Notes under the pieces: model-generated
Told to the model about the DNA's origin: nothing
The model's database searches: none
What the model saw: only the letters and a program-made list of their open reading frames with translations
Assembly: GCA_035709005.1 (NCBI GenBank)
Contig: DASTFB010000080.1
Location: forward strand, 1 to 64,000
Direction of reading: 5' to 3'
Source of the DNA: Candidatus Methylomirabilota bacterium
GTDB lineage: Bacteria; Methylomirabilota; Methylomirabilia; Rokubacteriales; CSP1-6
Length of the DNA: 64,000 bases
Translations under genes and position numbers: made by a program
Part shown: positions 23,826 through 49,796 of the stretch, one piece after another
Layout of the letters: every line of letters starts with the position of its first letter
How positions within the stretch are numbered: position 1 is the stretch's first letter

Positions 23826-26141
23826 GTGCCGATAAGTCCGCTGGAAGTTCCCTCGCGGATTCCCCCCCATAACCTCGACGCCGAGCGCGCCGTCCTGGGG
23901 GCCGTGCTGCTCGAAGGCCGGGAGACGTTGCCGCGGGTCATCGAGCTCCTGCGCCGCACCGACTTCTATACGGAAGCGCATCGGACCATCTACGAGACGA
24001 TGCTCCGGCTGTTCGACCGCGGGGAGCCGGTCGACCTCATCACGCTGAGCGAAGAGCTGCGGCGGATCGCTGCCCTGGAGGCCGTCGGCGGCCCCGCCGC
24101 CCTGGCGCTCCTGGTCGAGCACGCCTCCATCGCCGCCCACCTCGGGTCCTACGCCACCATCGTGCGCGACATGGCCGTGCTGCGTGAGCTCATCCAGACG
24201 TCGACGCAGATCATCACCCAGGCCTTCGACGCCAAGGAGGACGTGCAGAGCCTGGTCGATGATGCCGAGCGCCGGATCTTCGGGCTCGCCGAGCGCCGGC
24301 TGGAGGGCAGCGCCCTGCCCGTCGGCAGGATCCTCAAGAACACCTTCGAGTACATCGAACGGCTCTACGAGCGGAAGGAGCACGTCACCGGCGTGGCCAC
24401 GGGCTTCGAGAAGCTCGACCTGGAGACGTCGGGTCTGCAGCCCTCGGACTTCGTGATCATCGCCGGCCGCCCGAGCATGGGCAAGACCGCATTCTGTCTC
24501 AACATCGCCCAGCACGTGGGGATCGTGCTCGGCGGCAAGGTCCTGTTCCTCAGCCTGGAGATGTCCGCGCCCCAGCTGGTGCAGCGGATGCTCTGCTCGG
24601 AGGCGAAGGTGGACTCCCAGGGTGTGCGCACGGGACGGCTCTCGGCCTCCGACTGGCACCGCCTCACCGCAGCGGCCGGGCGCCTGAGCGAGGCGGCGAT
24701 CTTTATCGATGACTCGCCAGGGCTGACCGTGCTCGAGGCTCGGGCCAAGGCGCGGCGCATGAAGGCCGAGCACGGCCTGGACCTGCTCGTGATCGATTAC
24801 CTGCAGCTCATGCGGGGGCGGGCCTCGATGGAGAGCCGGCAGCAGGAGATCTCGGAGATTTCCCGATCGCTCAAGGCGCTGGCCAAGGAGCTCAACGTGC
24901 CGGTGGTCGCGCTGTCTCAGCTCTCGCGGGCGGTGGAGTCACGGGCCACCCGGGATTTCCGGCCCCAGCTGAGCGACCTGAGAGAGTGCGTGACCGGGGA
25001 CACGCTCGTACTCCTGGCCGACGGGCAGCGGCGTCCGATCGGCGAGCTCGTGGGCGCGACGCCCGAGGTCCTGGCGATGCACGGGACCGGGAGCATCGCT
25101 CCGGCCAAGAGCGAGCGAATCTGGAAGGTCGGCGTCCGCCCGGTATTCCTGATCAGGCTGGCGAGCGGGCGGATGCTGCGAGCCACCGCACAGCACCGTC
25201 TGTTTTCCGGGCAGGGGTGGGTGACCGTCAGCGGGCTGGCAGTGGGCGACCGCCTCGCTGTCGCTCGTCGACTGCCCGAGCCCGCTGCGCGGGATGCGTG
25301 GCGCGACCTTCGAGTGGCCCTGATGGGTCAGCTGTTCAGCGGGAACTTCGGGCAACGCTCCCATCAGAAGCGGATTCCTCGGGCCGCGTTCATGCTCTCG
25401 AACCGGCAGATCGCCCTGCTGCTTCGCCGCCTGTGGGCCACCCACGGCACCATCGCGGTACGCCGCCACTCGCGGGGCAGCCATGGCGTCTCCTACAGCA
25501 CCAACAGGCCGGGCGCTTCGACCAACAAACCAGGCTACCGCCCTTCGTTCTTTGTCCCCGTATCGGGGGCGTCGCAGTTGCGGCGATTCCTCGATACCGT
25601 CGGCGCCTTTGGCCCCCGTCGCGCTCAGGCGGAGCGTCTCAAGGGCTGGTTAGCGGCTCGGAAGGCCAACACGAATGTCGACACGGTGCCGCTCGGGGAC
25701 GTCGACCGCGTCAGGGCACTGACGCGCGAGAAAGGCCTCTCTACTGGACGAATGGCAGCGCTTCGCGGCACCGCGTACAGAGGAGGGGTACTGCGGTCGC
25801 GCGCGACGGACGACCTCTTCTGGGATCGGATCGTCGCGATTTCGCCTGACGGGGAAGCCGAGGTGTTCGACCTGACGGTCCCCGGTCCGGCCTCCTGGCT
25901 CGCGGACGGAATCGTCAGCCATAATAGCGGCGCGCTCGAGCAGGACGCCGACCTCATTCTCTTCCTCTATCGTCCCTCGGTCTACAAGGAGGACCTGCCT
26001 CCCGACGAGGCCAACATCACCGAGCTCATCATCGGGAAGCAGCGTAATGGCCCGGTGGGCACGGTGAAGGTCGTCTTCCTGCCCCAGTACGCCCGCTTCG
26101 AGAACGTCGCGGATCTGCACCGCCAGCCGCAGCCGTTCTGA
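23826..26141 (+). CDS. dnaB: Replicative DNA helicase DnaB with intein
   Basis: Hexameric 5'-3' helicase of the replication fork. The precursor is 771 aa; removing the 313-residue intein leaves 458 aa, the normal size. The N-terminal domain (PPHNLDAERAVLGAVLL) is followed by a linker and the RecA-like motor with Walker A GRPSMGKTAF (about residue 215), LFLSLEMSA, DYLQLM and SQLSRAVE. The intein splits LSDLRE from SGALEQDADL, the site usually called DnaB-b. The rest of the motor (LIIGKQRNGPVGTVKVVFLPQYARFEN, broken) follows it. The start is GTG 23826 with GAGG upstream. Confidence 0.95.
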   Translation: MPISPLEVPSRIPPHNLDAERAVLGAVLLEGRETLPRVIELLRRTDFYTEAHRTIYETMLRLFDRGEPVDLITLSEELRRIAALEAVGGPAALALLVEHASIAAHLGSYATIVRDMAVLRELIQTSTQIITQAFDAKEDVQSLVDDAERRIFGLAERRLEGSALPVGRILKNTFEYIERLYERKEHVTGVATGFEKLDLETSGLQPSDFVIIAGRPSMGKTAFCLNIAQHVGIVLGGKVLFLSLEMSAPQLVQRMLCSEAKVDSQGVRTGRLSASDWHRLTAAAGRLSEAAIFIDDSPGLTVLEARAKARRMKAEHGLDLLVIDYLQLMRGRASMESRQQEISEISRSLKALAKELNVPVVALSQLSRAVESRATRDFRPQLSDLRECVTGDTLVLLADGQRRPIGELVGATPEVLAMHGTGSIAPAKSERIWKVGVRPVFLIRLASGRMLRATAQHRLFSGQGWVTVSGLAVGDRLAVARRLPEPAARDAWRDLRVALMGQLFSGNFGQRSHQKRIPRAAFMLSNRQIALLLRRLWATHGTIAVRRHSRGSHGVSYSTNRPGASTNKPGYRPSFFVPVSGASQLRRFLDTVGAFGPRRAQAERLKGWLAARKANTNVDTVPLGDVDRVRALTREKGLSTGRMAALRGTAYRGGVLRSRATDDLFWDRIVAISPDGEAEVFDLTVPGPASWLADGIVSHNSGALEQDADLILFLYRPSVYKEDLPPDEANITELIIGKQRNGPVGTVKVVFLPQYARFENVADLHRQPQPF
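24987..25925 (+). mobile_element. DnaB intein with degenerate LAGLIDADG endonuclease
   Basis: A 313-residue protein intron. It begins CVTGDTLVLLADGQ (Cys1) and has block B ATAQHRLFSGQGWV (TxxH). It ends VFDLTVPGPASWLADG then IVSHN before Ser+1, so all residues needed for self-splicing are present. The central part aligns in position with a LAGLIDADG homing endonuclease, but the two catalytic motifs read LMGQLFSGN and LRRLWATHGTI. The expected aspartates are lost, so it can probably splice but not cut DNA. Confidence 0.9.
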
Positions 26142-29289: not shown

Positions 29290-29796
29290 ATGGCCAACGA
29301 CGTGCCCTTGCTCGAGCGCCTCGCCCAGATGCCGGCAGTCCCCGCCACCGCGGCGGCGGCGCTGGTGGCCGAGCTGCCCAAGGCCCAGACCGACCCCGTG
29401 ATCGGTCCGCTGTTCGGGATCGACGAGGACGGCGATCCTGCCGTCAGCGCCTTCGTGCCGGCGGTGCTCCAGCAATTCCAGGAACGCCAGGATCTCACGT
29501 GCTATGAAGCGCTGCTGGAAGGGCTGACCGGCATCTGGAATGCGGCCGTGCGGGCCGCCGTGGTGACCCGGCTGCGCGAGGCCGGCCTGCCCCCCGACGA
29601 CCTCTTGCTCCGGCTGCAGAAGCTGTCGCCCACACTGGGGTTCGCCAAGGAGCGCGCGGAATGGGCGCGGCACTGGCTCAGCGATCCGTTCACCCAGGAC
29701 GCCTTGCTGGTCCAGCAGTGCGTGGTGCGCCTTCTGCTGGCCCTGCGCTGCATGGCCGAAGCCCGGGCCGTCGAGCTGACCGCGCGTAGCGACTGA
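29290..29796 (+). CDS. Hypothetical protein
   Basis: A 168-aa, mostly helical, acidic protein without signal peptide or membrane segment that I can see (MANDVPLLERLAQMPAVPAT...). No recognised domain. GGGAGG precedes the ATG by six bases; an ATG two codons upstream overlaps the transporter stop. Thirteen bases separate it from the AhpD-like selenoprotein gene, so the two are likely cotranscribed. Confidence 0.7.
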   Translation: MANDVPLLERLAQMPAVPATAAAALVAELPKAQTDPVIGPLFGIDEDGDPAVSAFVPAVLQQFQERQDLTCYEALLEGLTGIWNAAVRAAVVTRLREAGLPPDDLLLRLQKLSPTLGFAKERAEWARHWLSDPFTQDALLVQQCVVRLLLALRCMAEARAVELTARSD

Positions 29797-29809
29797 GAGG
29801 AGGGGCCCG

Positions 29810-30157
29810 ATGCACGTGCACGAGCGCAACAAGGAGAAGAAGCGCCTGAACGGCCTCATTCTCCGCTCGCCGATGAAGGTGTACACGGCCTTCCGCGAGA
29901 TCGGGGAGAAGGTCTTCGCCGACGGCGCCCTGTCCAAGAAGCACAAGGAGCTGACGGCTCTGGCGGTGGCGGTGTCGCAGAACTGCTTCGACTGAATCGA
30001 TCATCGAGTCGAGGAGGTCCTCGACCAGGGCGCGAGCGAGGCGGAGATCGCCGAGACGCTCGATATCGGGTTGCTCATGGGCGGCACGCTGTCGGTGAAA
30101 TCGGTCCGCCATGCCGTGGCCGTGCTGGAGCAGTTTCGGGAGGCCCGCCGGGGCTAG
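29810..30157 (+). CDS. AhpD/CMD-family peroxidase-like protein, probable selenoprotein (UGA at 29993-29995)
   Basis: A 115-residue product if the UGA is read as selenocysteine (Sec62). Before it, KKHKELTALAVAVSQNCFD is the carboxymuconolactone decarboxylase/AhpD core helix; after it, the same frame continues IDHRVEEVLDQGASEAEIAE, then LLMGGTLSVKSVRHAVAVLEQF, to a TAG at 30155. The UGA replaces the second cysteine of the family CxxC redox pair, giving CFDU. A 7-bp hairpin starts 12 nt after the UGA. Proteins of this family act as small thiol-dependent peroxidases. The alternative is a nonsense mutation of TGC/TGT, but the intact downstream frame argues against a decaying gene. A histidine sits at Sec+3 rather than the usual +4. 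Confidence 0.8.
30008..30025 (+). promoter_or_regulatory. Bacterial SECIS-like hairpin
   Basis: GTCGAGG (30008-30014), loop AGGT, CCTCGAC (30019-30025): a perfect 7-bp stem 12 nt after the in-frame UGA, with the loop about 20 nt away. Bacterial SECIS elements recognised by SelB lie at this distance and expose G and U in a small loop, as in Escherichia coli fdhF, which also contains AGGUC. Confidence 0.7.
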
Positions 30158-30166
30158 GGCAGAGGC

Positions 30167-33137: not shown

Positions 33138-33214
33138 CCCCGACGATCCCGTCTCACCAACGGGGCGACGCTCCGTCCGAACCGGCGTCGCAAGCATCGT
33201 CGGGGCTTTGTTTT
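33138..33214 (+). terminator. Branched Rho-independent terminator
   Basis: A 10-bp outer helix (33138-33147 with 33196-33205) encloses two hairpins and is followed by CTTTGTTTT. It overlaps the stop codon of the convergent cold-shock gene and probably also ends that transcript. Confidence 0.6.
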
Positions 33215-33413
33215 AGAGCTTGCGGACGTTCGCGGCCTGCAGCCCCTTGGGACCCCGGGTCACCTCGAACTCGACCTTGTCGCCTTCGGCCAGGCTCTTG
33301 AACCCCTGCCCCTGGATGGCGCTGTAGTGGACGAACACGTCCTCACCGCCGTCGACCTGGATGAAGCCGTATCCCTTCGCGTCGTTGAACCACTTCACCG
33401 TGCCTTGAGCCAT
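33213..33413 (-). CDS. Cold-shock protein, CspA family (copy 1)
   Basis: A 66-aa nucleic-acid chaperone with one cold-shock OB fold. RNP1 is KGYGFIQ, RNP2 is VFVHYSAI, and the ending is [13 protein letters not shown]. It binds single-stranded RNA and melts structures at low temperature or during growth transitions. The start [11 protein letters not shown] has AAGGAAC upstream. It is the second of two tandem copies (89% identical by eye); a terminator stands between them, so its expression depends on readthrough or a hidden promoter. Confidence 0.95.
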
Positions 33414-33446
33414 GCTGTCGTTCCTTTCGACGGGGTGTCGGACAAG

Positions 33447-33479
33447 AAAAAACGTCGCAGGACCAGGTCCTCGCGACGT
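33447..33479 (-). terminator. Terminator between the two cold-shock genes
   Basis: On the minus strand ACGTCGC and GCGACGT pair, with an inner AGGA/TCCT helix and one bulged G, followed by TTTTTT. It ends the copy-2 transcript 34 bp before the copy-1 start. Confidence 0.85.
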
Positions 33480-33510
33480 CACTCCTTTTCAGACCCGATC
33501 GGCCGGGACG

Positions 33511-33561: not shown

Positions 33562-33762
33562 CTAGACTTTCCGGACGTTGCTGGCCTGAAGACCCTTCGG
33601 GCCGCGCGTCACCTCGAACTCGACGACGTCCCCCTCCGCCAGGCTCTTGAAGCCCTGCGACTGGATGGCGCTGTAGTGAACGAAGACGTCCTCGCCGCCC
33701 TCCTGCGTGATGAACCCGTAGCCCTTCGCATCGTTGAACCACTTCACTCGACCTTGTGCCAT
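33562..33762 (-). CDS. Cold-shock protein, CspA family (copy 2)
   Basis: A 66-aa cold-shock domain protein, [20 protein letters not shown]..., with RNP1 KGYGFIT and RNP2 VFVHYSAI, differing from copy 1 at few positions. AAGGAGA lies about 11 bases before the ATG. A long, hairpin-rich leader (33763-33922) with an internal terminator precedes it, indicating control after transcription starts, as is usual for cspA mRNAs. Confidence 0.95.
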
Positions 33763-33922
33763 ACCGCTGATTCTCCTTGGGGTCTTCAGCCCCGTGTGCT
33801 CCCGCCATACCGGCGGGGTTTGCCCCTTGCGGGGCAAAAGAAAACGCCGTGCGATGCGGGTCTCGCACGGCGTGGCTTGTTCACTATCGCTACCGACGCA
33901 TCCGTTTTGAACCAGAAAAACG
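33763..33922 (-). promoter_or_regulatory. Structured leader with attenuator upstream of cold-shock copy 2
   Basis: Minus strand, from the likely start near 33922: a terminator-like hairpin, ACGCCGTGCGA/TCGCACGGCGT (33844-33873), then TTTTCTTTT; then TTTGCCCC/GGGGCAAA capped by GCAA (33819-33838); then CCCGCC/GGCGGG and GGGG/CCCC hairpins before the Shine-Dalgarno. The first hairpin would end transcription unless prevented. Confidence 0.65.
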
Positions 33923-33928
33923 GCGCCA

Positions 33929-33957
33929 GTCTTACACGGAGCCTTCGGGAACGTCAA
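33929..33957 (-). promoter_or_regulatory. Promoter of cold-shock copy 2
   Basis: On the minus strand: TTGACG (33957-33952), 17-bp spacer, TAAGAC (33934-33929). The -35 overlaps the stop codon of the upstream gene. Confidence 0.65.
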
Positions 33958-34985
33958 CCTGATTCTACGGTCCGGGTGACGGGACGGGAGCCGTTCCGGG
34001 TCCCGAGCCAGCCTGGCACAGCCACCGAGAAGCGTCCTGCGGTCCCACCCGCCACGATCACGTGAATCTCCTCGATTGACGCGAACTTCGGGATCAGCTC
34101 GTCCGGCGGCGGGGCCGGGTGGCGGTAGCGCAGGTTGGTGCCTTCGCCATGGTCGGCGTCGGGTAAGAGCTCTCCGTAGGGCCGGCGGACGCGCTCGTAG
34201 AGGTGCTGCCGCAGATCGGCCTTCGTCCAGCCGTCCGCGGCGAAGGTGAGGGCGTGCTCGGGGCCCACCACGAGCAGGGTGTGGGAGTAGAGCGGGAAGT
34301 GCTTGCTGTTCCAGAGGCCTACCATCGACCAGCCCAACGACCCCGCCAGCGCCCGCGCCGTGCGGCTGGCGTGGTCCGAAATCCCGTGCGGCGCCTCGCC
34401 GGCGAAGAGCGTGACCGCGCTTGCCCCGGAGGCGATCCCCCGTTCCACGTGATAGGCCGGCCAGGGGCTCGCCTCCTCGTGCTCGCCGATGCAGTAGGTA
34501 TAGCGGCCGGGATGGCCGAACGTGGACATCGAGGTCTGCCCGGGCCTGGCGCCGCCGATGTTGATCATCAGCAGCCGCAACGCCCGCCCGATGGTGGCAT
34601 TGGCCCGATAGCCGGGACCGAATACGCCGAACGAGCAGTTCAGCCCGATCCGTTGACGGACCGGGCCGTTCACGATGATGAGCGGAGCCGAAAAGTGCGT
34701 CGAGCACGCCAGCCCGTGGAGGTTGAAGCTCGGATCGCAGGCCGCCTCGGCGGCGGCGATCACCACCGGCAGATACTCGGGCCGGCAGCCCGCCATGACG
34801 GCGTTGACGGCGACTTTTTCGACGGTGAGCCGGCCGTAGTTGGGAGGCATCTCGCCCAGCAGTTCGCCCGCCGGCCGCCGCGTCGACGCCAGCATCTGGT
34901 CGACGCGTCGACGCGTCGGCGGCACCACCGGTAAGCCGTCCGTGACACCACGCTCGAACCACTCCTCGAAGTCGTCGCTGCTCAT
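33954..34985 (-). CDS. Conserved hypothetical protein, about 343 aa
   Basis: From ATG 34985 the protein starts [20 protein letters not shown] and contains [58 protein letters not shown] and [20 protein letters not shown] recall this pattern from uncharacterised proteins of environmental GC-rich bacteria but know no function. Several conserved Cys, His and Glu residues ([21 protein letters not shown]) could form an active or metal site. No signal peptide. The frame is open to 35099, but the extra residues look unlike protein; no Shine-Dalgarno was found at either start. Confidence 0.7.
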
Positions 34986-48776: not shown

Positions 48777-49796
48777 ATGAGCGTCCTGCCCGTCGGCAAG
48801 CTCCGGGCCCAGCTGCTGCAGGCGGTGTTCGACCGCCACCCGATCAAGGATCCCCGCGTGGTGGTGGGCCCCCGGGTCGGCGAGGACGCGGCGGTGATCG
48901 ACCTCGGCGACCGCTATCTCGTGGCCACCAGCGATCCCATCACCTTCGCAGCCGCGGACCTGGCCTGGTACGCGCTCCAGGTGAACGCCAACGACGTGGC
49001 CGTCCGCGGCGCGCGTCCCCGATGGTTCCTGGCCACACTGCTGCTCCCCGAGGGGCGCACCAGCGACGACTCGGTGGCCGCGCTCTTCGACGGGCTGGCG
49101 GAGGCGTGCGCCGAGCTGGAGGTGACGCTGGTCGGAGGTCACACCGAGATCACCCACGGCCTGGACCGCCCCATCATCGCCGGCACCATGCTCGGCGAGG
49201 TGGACAAGGATCGGCTGGTCACCACGTCCGGCGCGCGCGTGGGCGACGCGGTGGTGATGACCAAGGGCATCCCGCTGGAAGGGGCCGCCATCATCGCGCG
49301 CGAGCGCGAAGCCGAGGCGCTCGCCGCCGGGGTCCCGGCCGCCGTGGTGACGCGGGCCAAGGCGTTCGTCCGCCGGCCGGGGCTCAGCGTGCTGCCCGAG
49401 GCCCAGCTCGCCTGTGAGCTCGCCCAGGTACACGCCATGCACGATCCGACGGAGGGCGGCCTGGCCACGGCGCTCGTCGAACTGGCCGACGCGGCCGGCG
49501 TCGGGCTGCGGATCGACCGCGAGCGCATCGTCGTGCTGCCCGAGGGCGATCGACTGTGTCGGATGTTCGGTCTCGACCCGCTCGGGACCATCGCATCCGG
49601 CGCGCTGGTGATGACCTTGAGCCCGGCCGACGCGGCGATCGTGATCCACGCCCTGGCCCGGGAGCGGATCGACGCGCACTACATCGGCCAGGTGGTCGCC
49701 CGCGAACGCGGGGTCGTCCTCGTGGAGGGGGGTCGGGAACGGCCGTTGCCCGTCTTCCCCCAGGACGAGATCACCAGGCTGTTCTCAGGAGGCTAG
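48777..49796 (+). CDS. HypE-like AIR-synthase family protein
   Basis: A 339-aa ATP-binding protein of the PurM/HypE/SelD/ThiL fold. It has VVVGPRVGEDAAVIDLGD near the start, NANDVAVRGARPRWF, LVGGHTEITHG and HDPTEGGLATALVELA. HypE activates carbamoyl for NiFe hydrogenase using a C-terminal cysteine; this protein ends DEITRLFSGG and has none, and no hyp or hydrogenase gene is near. The Cys/Sec-Gly-rich start of SelD is also missing. The substrate is therefore unknown. Confidence 0.75.
   Translation: MSVLPVGKLRAQLLQAVFDRHPIKDPRVVVGPRVGEDAAVIDLGDRYLVATSDPITFAAADLAWYALQVNANDVAVRGARPRWFLATLLLPEGRTSDDSVAALFDGLAEACAELEVTLVGGHTEITHGLDRPIIAGTMLGEVDKDRLVTTSGARVGDAVVMTKGIPLEGAAIIAREREAEALAAGVPAAVVTRAKAFVRRPGLSVLPEAQLACELAQVHAMHDPTEGGLATALVELADAAGVGLRIDRERIVVLPEGDRLCRMFGLDPLGTIASGALVMTLSPADAAIVIHALARERIDAHYIGQVVARERGVVLVEGGRERPLPVFPQDEITRLFSGG

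Follow-up and report, generated by a model that had tools for sequence, protein, structure and literature searches.

The locus and the gene at 29810-30157

The window, that is, the whole 64,000-nt stretch of DNA that was analysed, belongs to the genome (4.59 Mb in 134 contigs, 95% complete) of an uncultured soil/groundwater bacterium of the Rokubacteria. On its forward strand a frame runs from 29810 to 30157 which, read directly from the sequence, is open throughout apart from a single interruption, a TGA at 29993-29995. With the TGA translated as a residue, the product reads MHVHERN...QNCFDUIDHRVEEV...REARRG. The features of the gene are the following.

29798..29805, + strand: Shine-Dalgarno-like run AGGAGGGG, read from the sequence, immediately 5′ of the start codon
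29810..30157, + strand: gene of a predicted CMD/AhpD-like selenoprotein (115 residues, U62 included), from ATG to TAG
29948..29950, + strand: Glu47 codon, candidate proton-relay Glu, conservation among the aligned orthologues 90% or higher
29984..29986, + strand: Cys59 codon TGC, putative resolving Cys of CxxU, invariant in 44 aligned orthologues
29993..29995, + strand: in-frame TGA, predicted selenocysteine 62, at the second-Cys position of CxxC; TGA in 45/45 orthologues
30002..30004, + strand: codon of His65, which lies at Sec+3 (usually +4 in the family) and is invariant in the clade
30008..30025, + strand: predicted bSECIS hairpin GUCGAGG-AGGU-CCUCGAC within the coding sequence, all 7 pairs kept in all sequences

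The first-pass annotation had described an AhpD/CMD-family frame with one TGA exactly where the second Cys of a CxxC motif belongs (CFDU), followed by 53 family-like codons up to a TAG. Both parts of this description are borne out by the sequence and by a match to the Pfam CMD domain PF02627 (E=2.8e-15; 56.5 bits, cut-off 23), which places the product in the family. The 53 codons 3′ of the TGA resemble the CMD family, the TGA aligns with the second Cys of CxxC in sequence alignments, and distant homologues carry a Cys at the aligned position. The AlphaFold model (pLDDT 94.5) has as its best structural match the CMD protein TM1620 of Thermotoga (TM-score 0.87, 33% identity), suggesting that the gene product is a small all-helical CMD/AhpD-like protein. 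Purine-rich GGAG-type runs are also found upstream of most orthologues. Scanning the window for TGAs within coding-like frames gave six sites, of which 29993 alone combines a CxxU motif with Pfam support for its frame; the other five, judged by eye, look like neighbouring or shadow frames without a redox motif.

In Rokubacteria the usual gene order at this locus is AlkA-like, MFS transporter, 168-residue protein, selenoprotein, PNPOx-like, ABC-F and HNH. The conserved 168-residue protein (29290-29793 in the window), for which no Pfam or NCBIfam match was found, adjoins the locus in most Rokubacteria examined, including those that lack the selenoprotein gene. The PNPOx-like gene, present in most relatives between the selenoprotein and ABC-F genes, is absent from the window, where ABC-F comes directly next (30158-30166). 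Elsewhere in the window, a DnaB-like replicative helicase frame (23826-26141) contains an insertion from CVTGDTLVLLADG to VSHN that is intein-like in look, and two adjacent cold-shock-protein-like stretches lie on the minus strand (33213-33482 and 33562-34962), the latter forming the end of a long frame.

Decoding of the UGA codon and the downstream hairpin

Orthologues were sought in 57 genomes of the family, in 95 Methylomirabilota genomes of the phylum and in about 290 genomes from other phyla. The 95 Methylomirabilota genomes yielded 45 orthologues, counting that of the window, with identities from about 65% upwards, and the named relatives found are all Rokubacteria/Rokuibacteriota MAGs. 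Every one of the 45 has TGA at the codon in question, and no Cys orthologue was found among the 95 genomes. That is, the comparison of homologues for Cys or UGA proposed in the first-pass annotation gave TGA in all close relatives, never TGC or TGT, with the hairpin kept in each. One genome (G045) holds a split, frame-shifted copy scoring 104 bits. Searching for Cys orthologues in the about 290 genomes outside the phylum returned distant homologues only, scoring at most 79 bits versus 184-219 within the clade. One homologue from another phylum (L101, genome G152) also contains a UGA; it has its His at the usual +4, and its hairpin has another sequence but an identical layout (7 bp, a 4-nt loop and a distance of 12 nt), with a folding energy of -6.8 kcal/mol, just short of the -7.5 limit of the bSECIS model described below. 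A second out-of-phylum sequence, L105, was set aside as a UGA form after its flagged TGA proved to be the natural end of a Cys protein.

Two observations could speak for a rival reading, in which the TGA is a true stop, leaving a 61-residue protein and a decayed pseudogene behind it, or an assembly error: translation by the standard code would end at 29995, and the gene has been lost or partly deleted in some relatives. We consider this reading extremely improbable. The presence of the same TGA in 45 assemblies of different species rules out a base-call error. The pN/pS ratio goes from 0.39 over the 50 codons preceding the UGA to 0.29 over the 46 that follow, so that purifying selection on the protein is, as estimated from these alignments, no weaker behind the UGA than in front of it, a pattern that a true stop would not produce. 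Moreover, the orthologues have true stops (TAG, TAA or TGA) at the proper end, and in the AlphaFold model the complete fold needs the C-terminal part beyond the TGA.

The first-pass annotation had also suggested looking for selA, selB, selC and selD, and SelA, SelB, tRNA-Sec and SelD were all found in the genome. The tRNA-Sec scores 68.9 bits (cut-off 47) and has the anticodon UCA, SelA (512 bits) is encoded on the same contig about 1.5 kb downstream of it, and SelB scores 361 bits. SelD (336 bits) has one in-frame TGA of its own, at SCAGU, with a hairpin behind it. Because tRNA-Sec, SelA, SelB and a UGA-containing SelD are encoded, UGA is very probably read as selenocysteine elsewhere in this genome. 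Formate dehydrogenase, considered as an independent Sec gene, gave no support, the one full-length match being without an in-frame stop. Within the window, the frame at 48798-49565 was rejected as a SelD candidate, as this PurM/ThiL/HypE-like sequence does not reach the SelD cut-off and fits ThiL just as well. SelA was also found in 40 of the 45 orthologue-bearing genomes; it was not found in the other five, three of which are 76-81% complete and two (G025 and G052) rated 95-100% complete.

The hairpin had been annotated as a perfect 7-bp stem with an AGGU loop at 30008-30025, 12 nt after the UGA, and each of these details proved exact (GTCGAGG-AGGT-CCTCGAC in DNA letters; minimum free energy -10.7 kcal/mol). 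The bSECIS model asks for a loop of 3-9 nt with a G in its first two positions, an upper stem of 4-16 bp, a UGA-to-loop distance of 16-37 nt and a minimum free energy of at most -7.5 kcal/mol (PMC13188914); with its 4-nt AGGU loop, 7 bp, 19 nt from UGA to loop and -10.7 kcal/mol, the hairpin lies within every one of these limits. A comparable stem follows 12 of the 1303 TGAs in the window (0.9%) by chance. When the region was folded with long flanks its stability was no greater than that of shuffles (z=0.34), which means that the energy of a single sequence proves nothing here, and comparison between orthologues was used instead.

Across the orthologues all stem cells are paired (315/315, 100%), whereas slid controls are only 33-57% paired, and the covariation score of the stem was reached by none of 500 shuffles. 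The pair 30010/30023 occurs in C-G, G-C and U-A forms; mapped on a tree that excludes the hairpin columns, it has undergone three independent changes, all of them compensated. The pair joins the wobble position of a Val codon to the first position of codon 72 (Asp, His, Asn or Gly), and where His or Asn replaces Asp at residue 72, the Val codon has changed to match. Synonymous variation (pS) is 0.127 in the hairpin codons versus 0.460 after them, i.e. 3.6-fold lower, and Val70 is GTC and Leu71 is CTC in 44 of 44 sequences, whereas Val and Leu codons vary elsewhere. Variation in the stem is limited, in that five of the seven pairs are invariant and the covariation comes from one pair, together with U-A/U-G changes at a second one. 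The hairpin also overlies a conserved peptide, RVEEVL, and protein constraint could account for part of its conservation. Taken as a whole, the alignment shows that the hairpin is under selection as an RNA element inside the coding sequence, and a freely varying codon that compensates its partner offers a clean example of such selection.

Comparative data by themselves tell that the UGA is read and not which residue is inserted, which leaves room for one of the standard amino acids (Trp, Cys or Arg) introduced through an altered genetic code or stop-codon leakage. The chance of this is very slight in our judgement: TGA is the working stop of most orthologues, so the code is not generally changed; the full Sec machinery is encoded and a SECIS hairpin lies at the right place; and the UGA occupies the position of the catalytic Cys. 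The earlier proposal that the UGA is decoded as selenocysteine is thus supported by the machinery, the conserved TGA, the selection past the UGA and the covariation in the hairpin, and on this comparative evidence UGA 62 is almost certainly read as selenocysteine in an AhpD-like redox protein. Selenocysteine insertion would then proceed by SelA charging tRNA-Sec, for which it uses selenophosphate made by SelD, and by SelB delivering the tRNA-Sec upon recognition of the hairpin that starts 12 nt after the UGA.

Predicted active site and function

In M. tuberculosis AhpD the catalytic relay consists of Glu118, Cys130, His132, Cys133 and His137 (PMC3141380). The arrangement of the AhpD type, a CxxC or CxxU motif with a Glu 12 residues before the first Cys, is present here (E47, C59, U62), the spacing from Glu47 to Cys59 being the same as that from Glu118 to Cys130. 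The relay His at +4 from the second Cys (His137) has no counterpart at that position in the clade. Instead, the motif C59-F-D-U62-I-D-H65-R66 has its His at Sec+3 and Arg66 at +4, both invariant in the clade, and residue 61 is Asp or Glu. The His at Sec+3 had been pointed out as unusual in the first-pass annotation, and rightly so: it is universal in the clade, whereas none of 24 distant homologues has a His at +3 and nearly all have it at +4. This shift means that the AhpD relay cannot be transferred unchanged. In the AlphaFold model, though, the Sec+3 and +4 positions lie on one helix (residues 60-72), so that His65 may still face the active site.

By analogy with AhpD, Sec62 would replace the nucleophilic second Cys of the CxxC motif (Cys133 in the M. 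tuberculosis enzyme), Cys59 would resolve Sec62 as a selenenyl-sulfide, and Glu47 together with His65, moved to Sec+3, could supply the proton relay. The protein would then act as a peroxidase or as a disulfide reductase/adaptor in antioxidant defence, and this peroxidase/adaptor role, predicted from the motif, is in our view reasonably probable. Functions in the CMD family are diverse, and the selenoprotein might have a non-peroxidase role instead, e.g. as a decarboxylase-type CMD enzyme, a metal- or metalloid-linked protein or a disulfide adaptor acting on a different substrate. Such a role, which we regard as possible though rather doubtful, would fit the closest curated names, which include arsenosugar-associated proteins and arsenite methyltransferase fusions (all below cut-off), and the PNPOx-like protein (flavin- or F420-type) encoded by the next gene in many relatives. 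Against it, the CxxU motif and the upstream Glu at AhpD spacing point to thiol/selenol redox chemistry, and the gamma-CMD decarboxylases lack the CxxC motif (PMC3141380).

Gene loss and relation to known selenoproteins

Sixteen relatives have kept the locus otherwise, with the selenoprotein gene gone. What remains of the gene is its first 24 codons in one of them (G006) and a short piece in another (G003), the other relatives showing little or nothing recognisable, and no Cys version was found at the locus in any of the 16. A good SelA match is present in 15 of these 16 genomes, the match in the remaining one (G017) being a fragment at a contig end. A deleted gene without a Cys copy at the locus, in genomes that retain SelA, shows that the gene has been lost by deletion while selenocysteine use continues.

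The first-pass annotation had called the protein a new selenoprotein, and this stands in part. The clade falls below every curated selenoprotein model; the kind to which it belongs, on the other hand, has already been described. CMD-like selenoproteins with a CxxU motif in PF02627 have been known since the 2005 Sargasso Sea survey (PMC1088965), and CMD-like/AhpD-like CxxU selenoproteins are listed in reviews (PMC9312934, PMC13188914). The Sargasso Sea protein shares with the present one the Pfam domain, a CxxU motif in which Sec takes the place of the second Cys, and a bacterial SECIS element; the present clade, for its part, is confined to Methylomirabilota among the genomes searched, has His at Sec+3 and shows no Cys form. 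The GSU3128 family (NF041047, 'distant AhpD homologue') likewise has an AhpD-like core and Sec in CxxU, but the window protein scores 28.7 bits against a cut-off of 110 and lies outside that equivalog. The best NCBIfam matches, TIGR04169 (arsenosugar biosynthesis-associated peroxidase-like; 45.8 bits, cut-off 120) and the AhpD domain of NF041537 (38.5 bits, cut-off 510), also stay below their cut-offs, the protein here has no methyltransferase domain, and no arsenosugar gene was found among the identified neighbouring genes. The selenium-arsenic family NF045649 gave 24 bits (cut-off 380), and the AhpD-related protein model NF041238 gave no match at E<=1 for the window protein or at E<=0.001 for the clade. 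In all, none of the 44 clade members scanned reached the cut-off of an NCBIfam selenoprotein model. Compared with M. tuberculosis AhpD, TM1620 and Lpg0406, the two-helix CxxC hairpin and the upstream Glu are shared, whereas those proteins have Cys and His at +4 in place of Sec, His at +3 and Arg at +4. What is new, therefore, is an unmodelled Sec-only clade within the known CMD/AhpD CxxU kind, with the His shift and the lack of a Cys form as its own features.

A second AhpD/CMD-like CxxU selenoprotein candidate, AAGCTS-UGA-VPGRF, was observed in several relatives (L145-L147, L149 and L151-L154) and was not found in the window's genome. It has its own strong hairpin, similarly spaced, and lacks a His at both Sec+3 and Sec+4; its best NCBIfam match is GSU3128 (50 bits, cut-off 110).

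Searches of the literature on Rokubacteria and selenocysteine returned nothing relevant. A machine prediction on groundwater MAGs (Deng et al. 2026, as cited in PMC13188914) may already include the group, and one Methylomirabilota MAG has been predicted to encode 63 selenoproteins (PMC13188914). The present clade adds a well-supported Sec family to this uncultured phylum, recently reported as selenoprotein-rich. Annotation pipelines will probably cut such genes at the UGA, as there is no curated model for them.

To our knowledge, hardly any selenoprotein family lacks a Cys form. Sec in 45 of 45 orthologues, together with loss by deletion and not by a change from Sec to Cys, makes the clade a useful test case for the indispensability of selenium. 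We tentatively propose, as a conceivable though not the likelier case, that it is a Sec-obligate AhpD-like clade restricted to Methylomirabilota, in which the active site has been rebuilt around selenium with the His moved from +4 to +3, with reversion to Cys impossible in any lineage and, consequently, with deletion of the whole gene when it is unneeded. If true, the clade would hold a variant of AhpD catalysis that functions with selenocysteine only.
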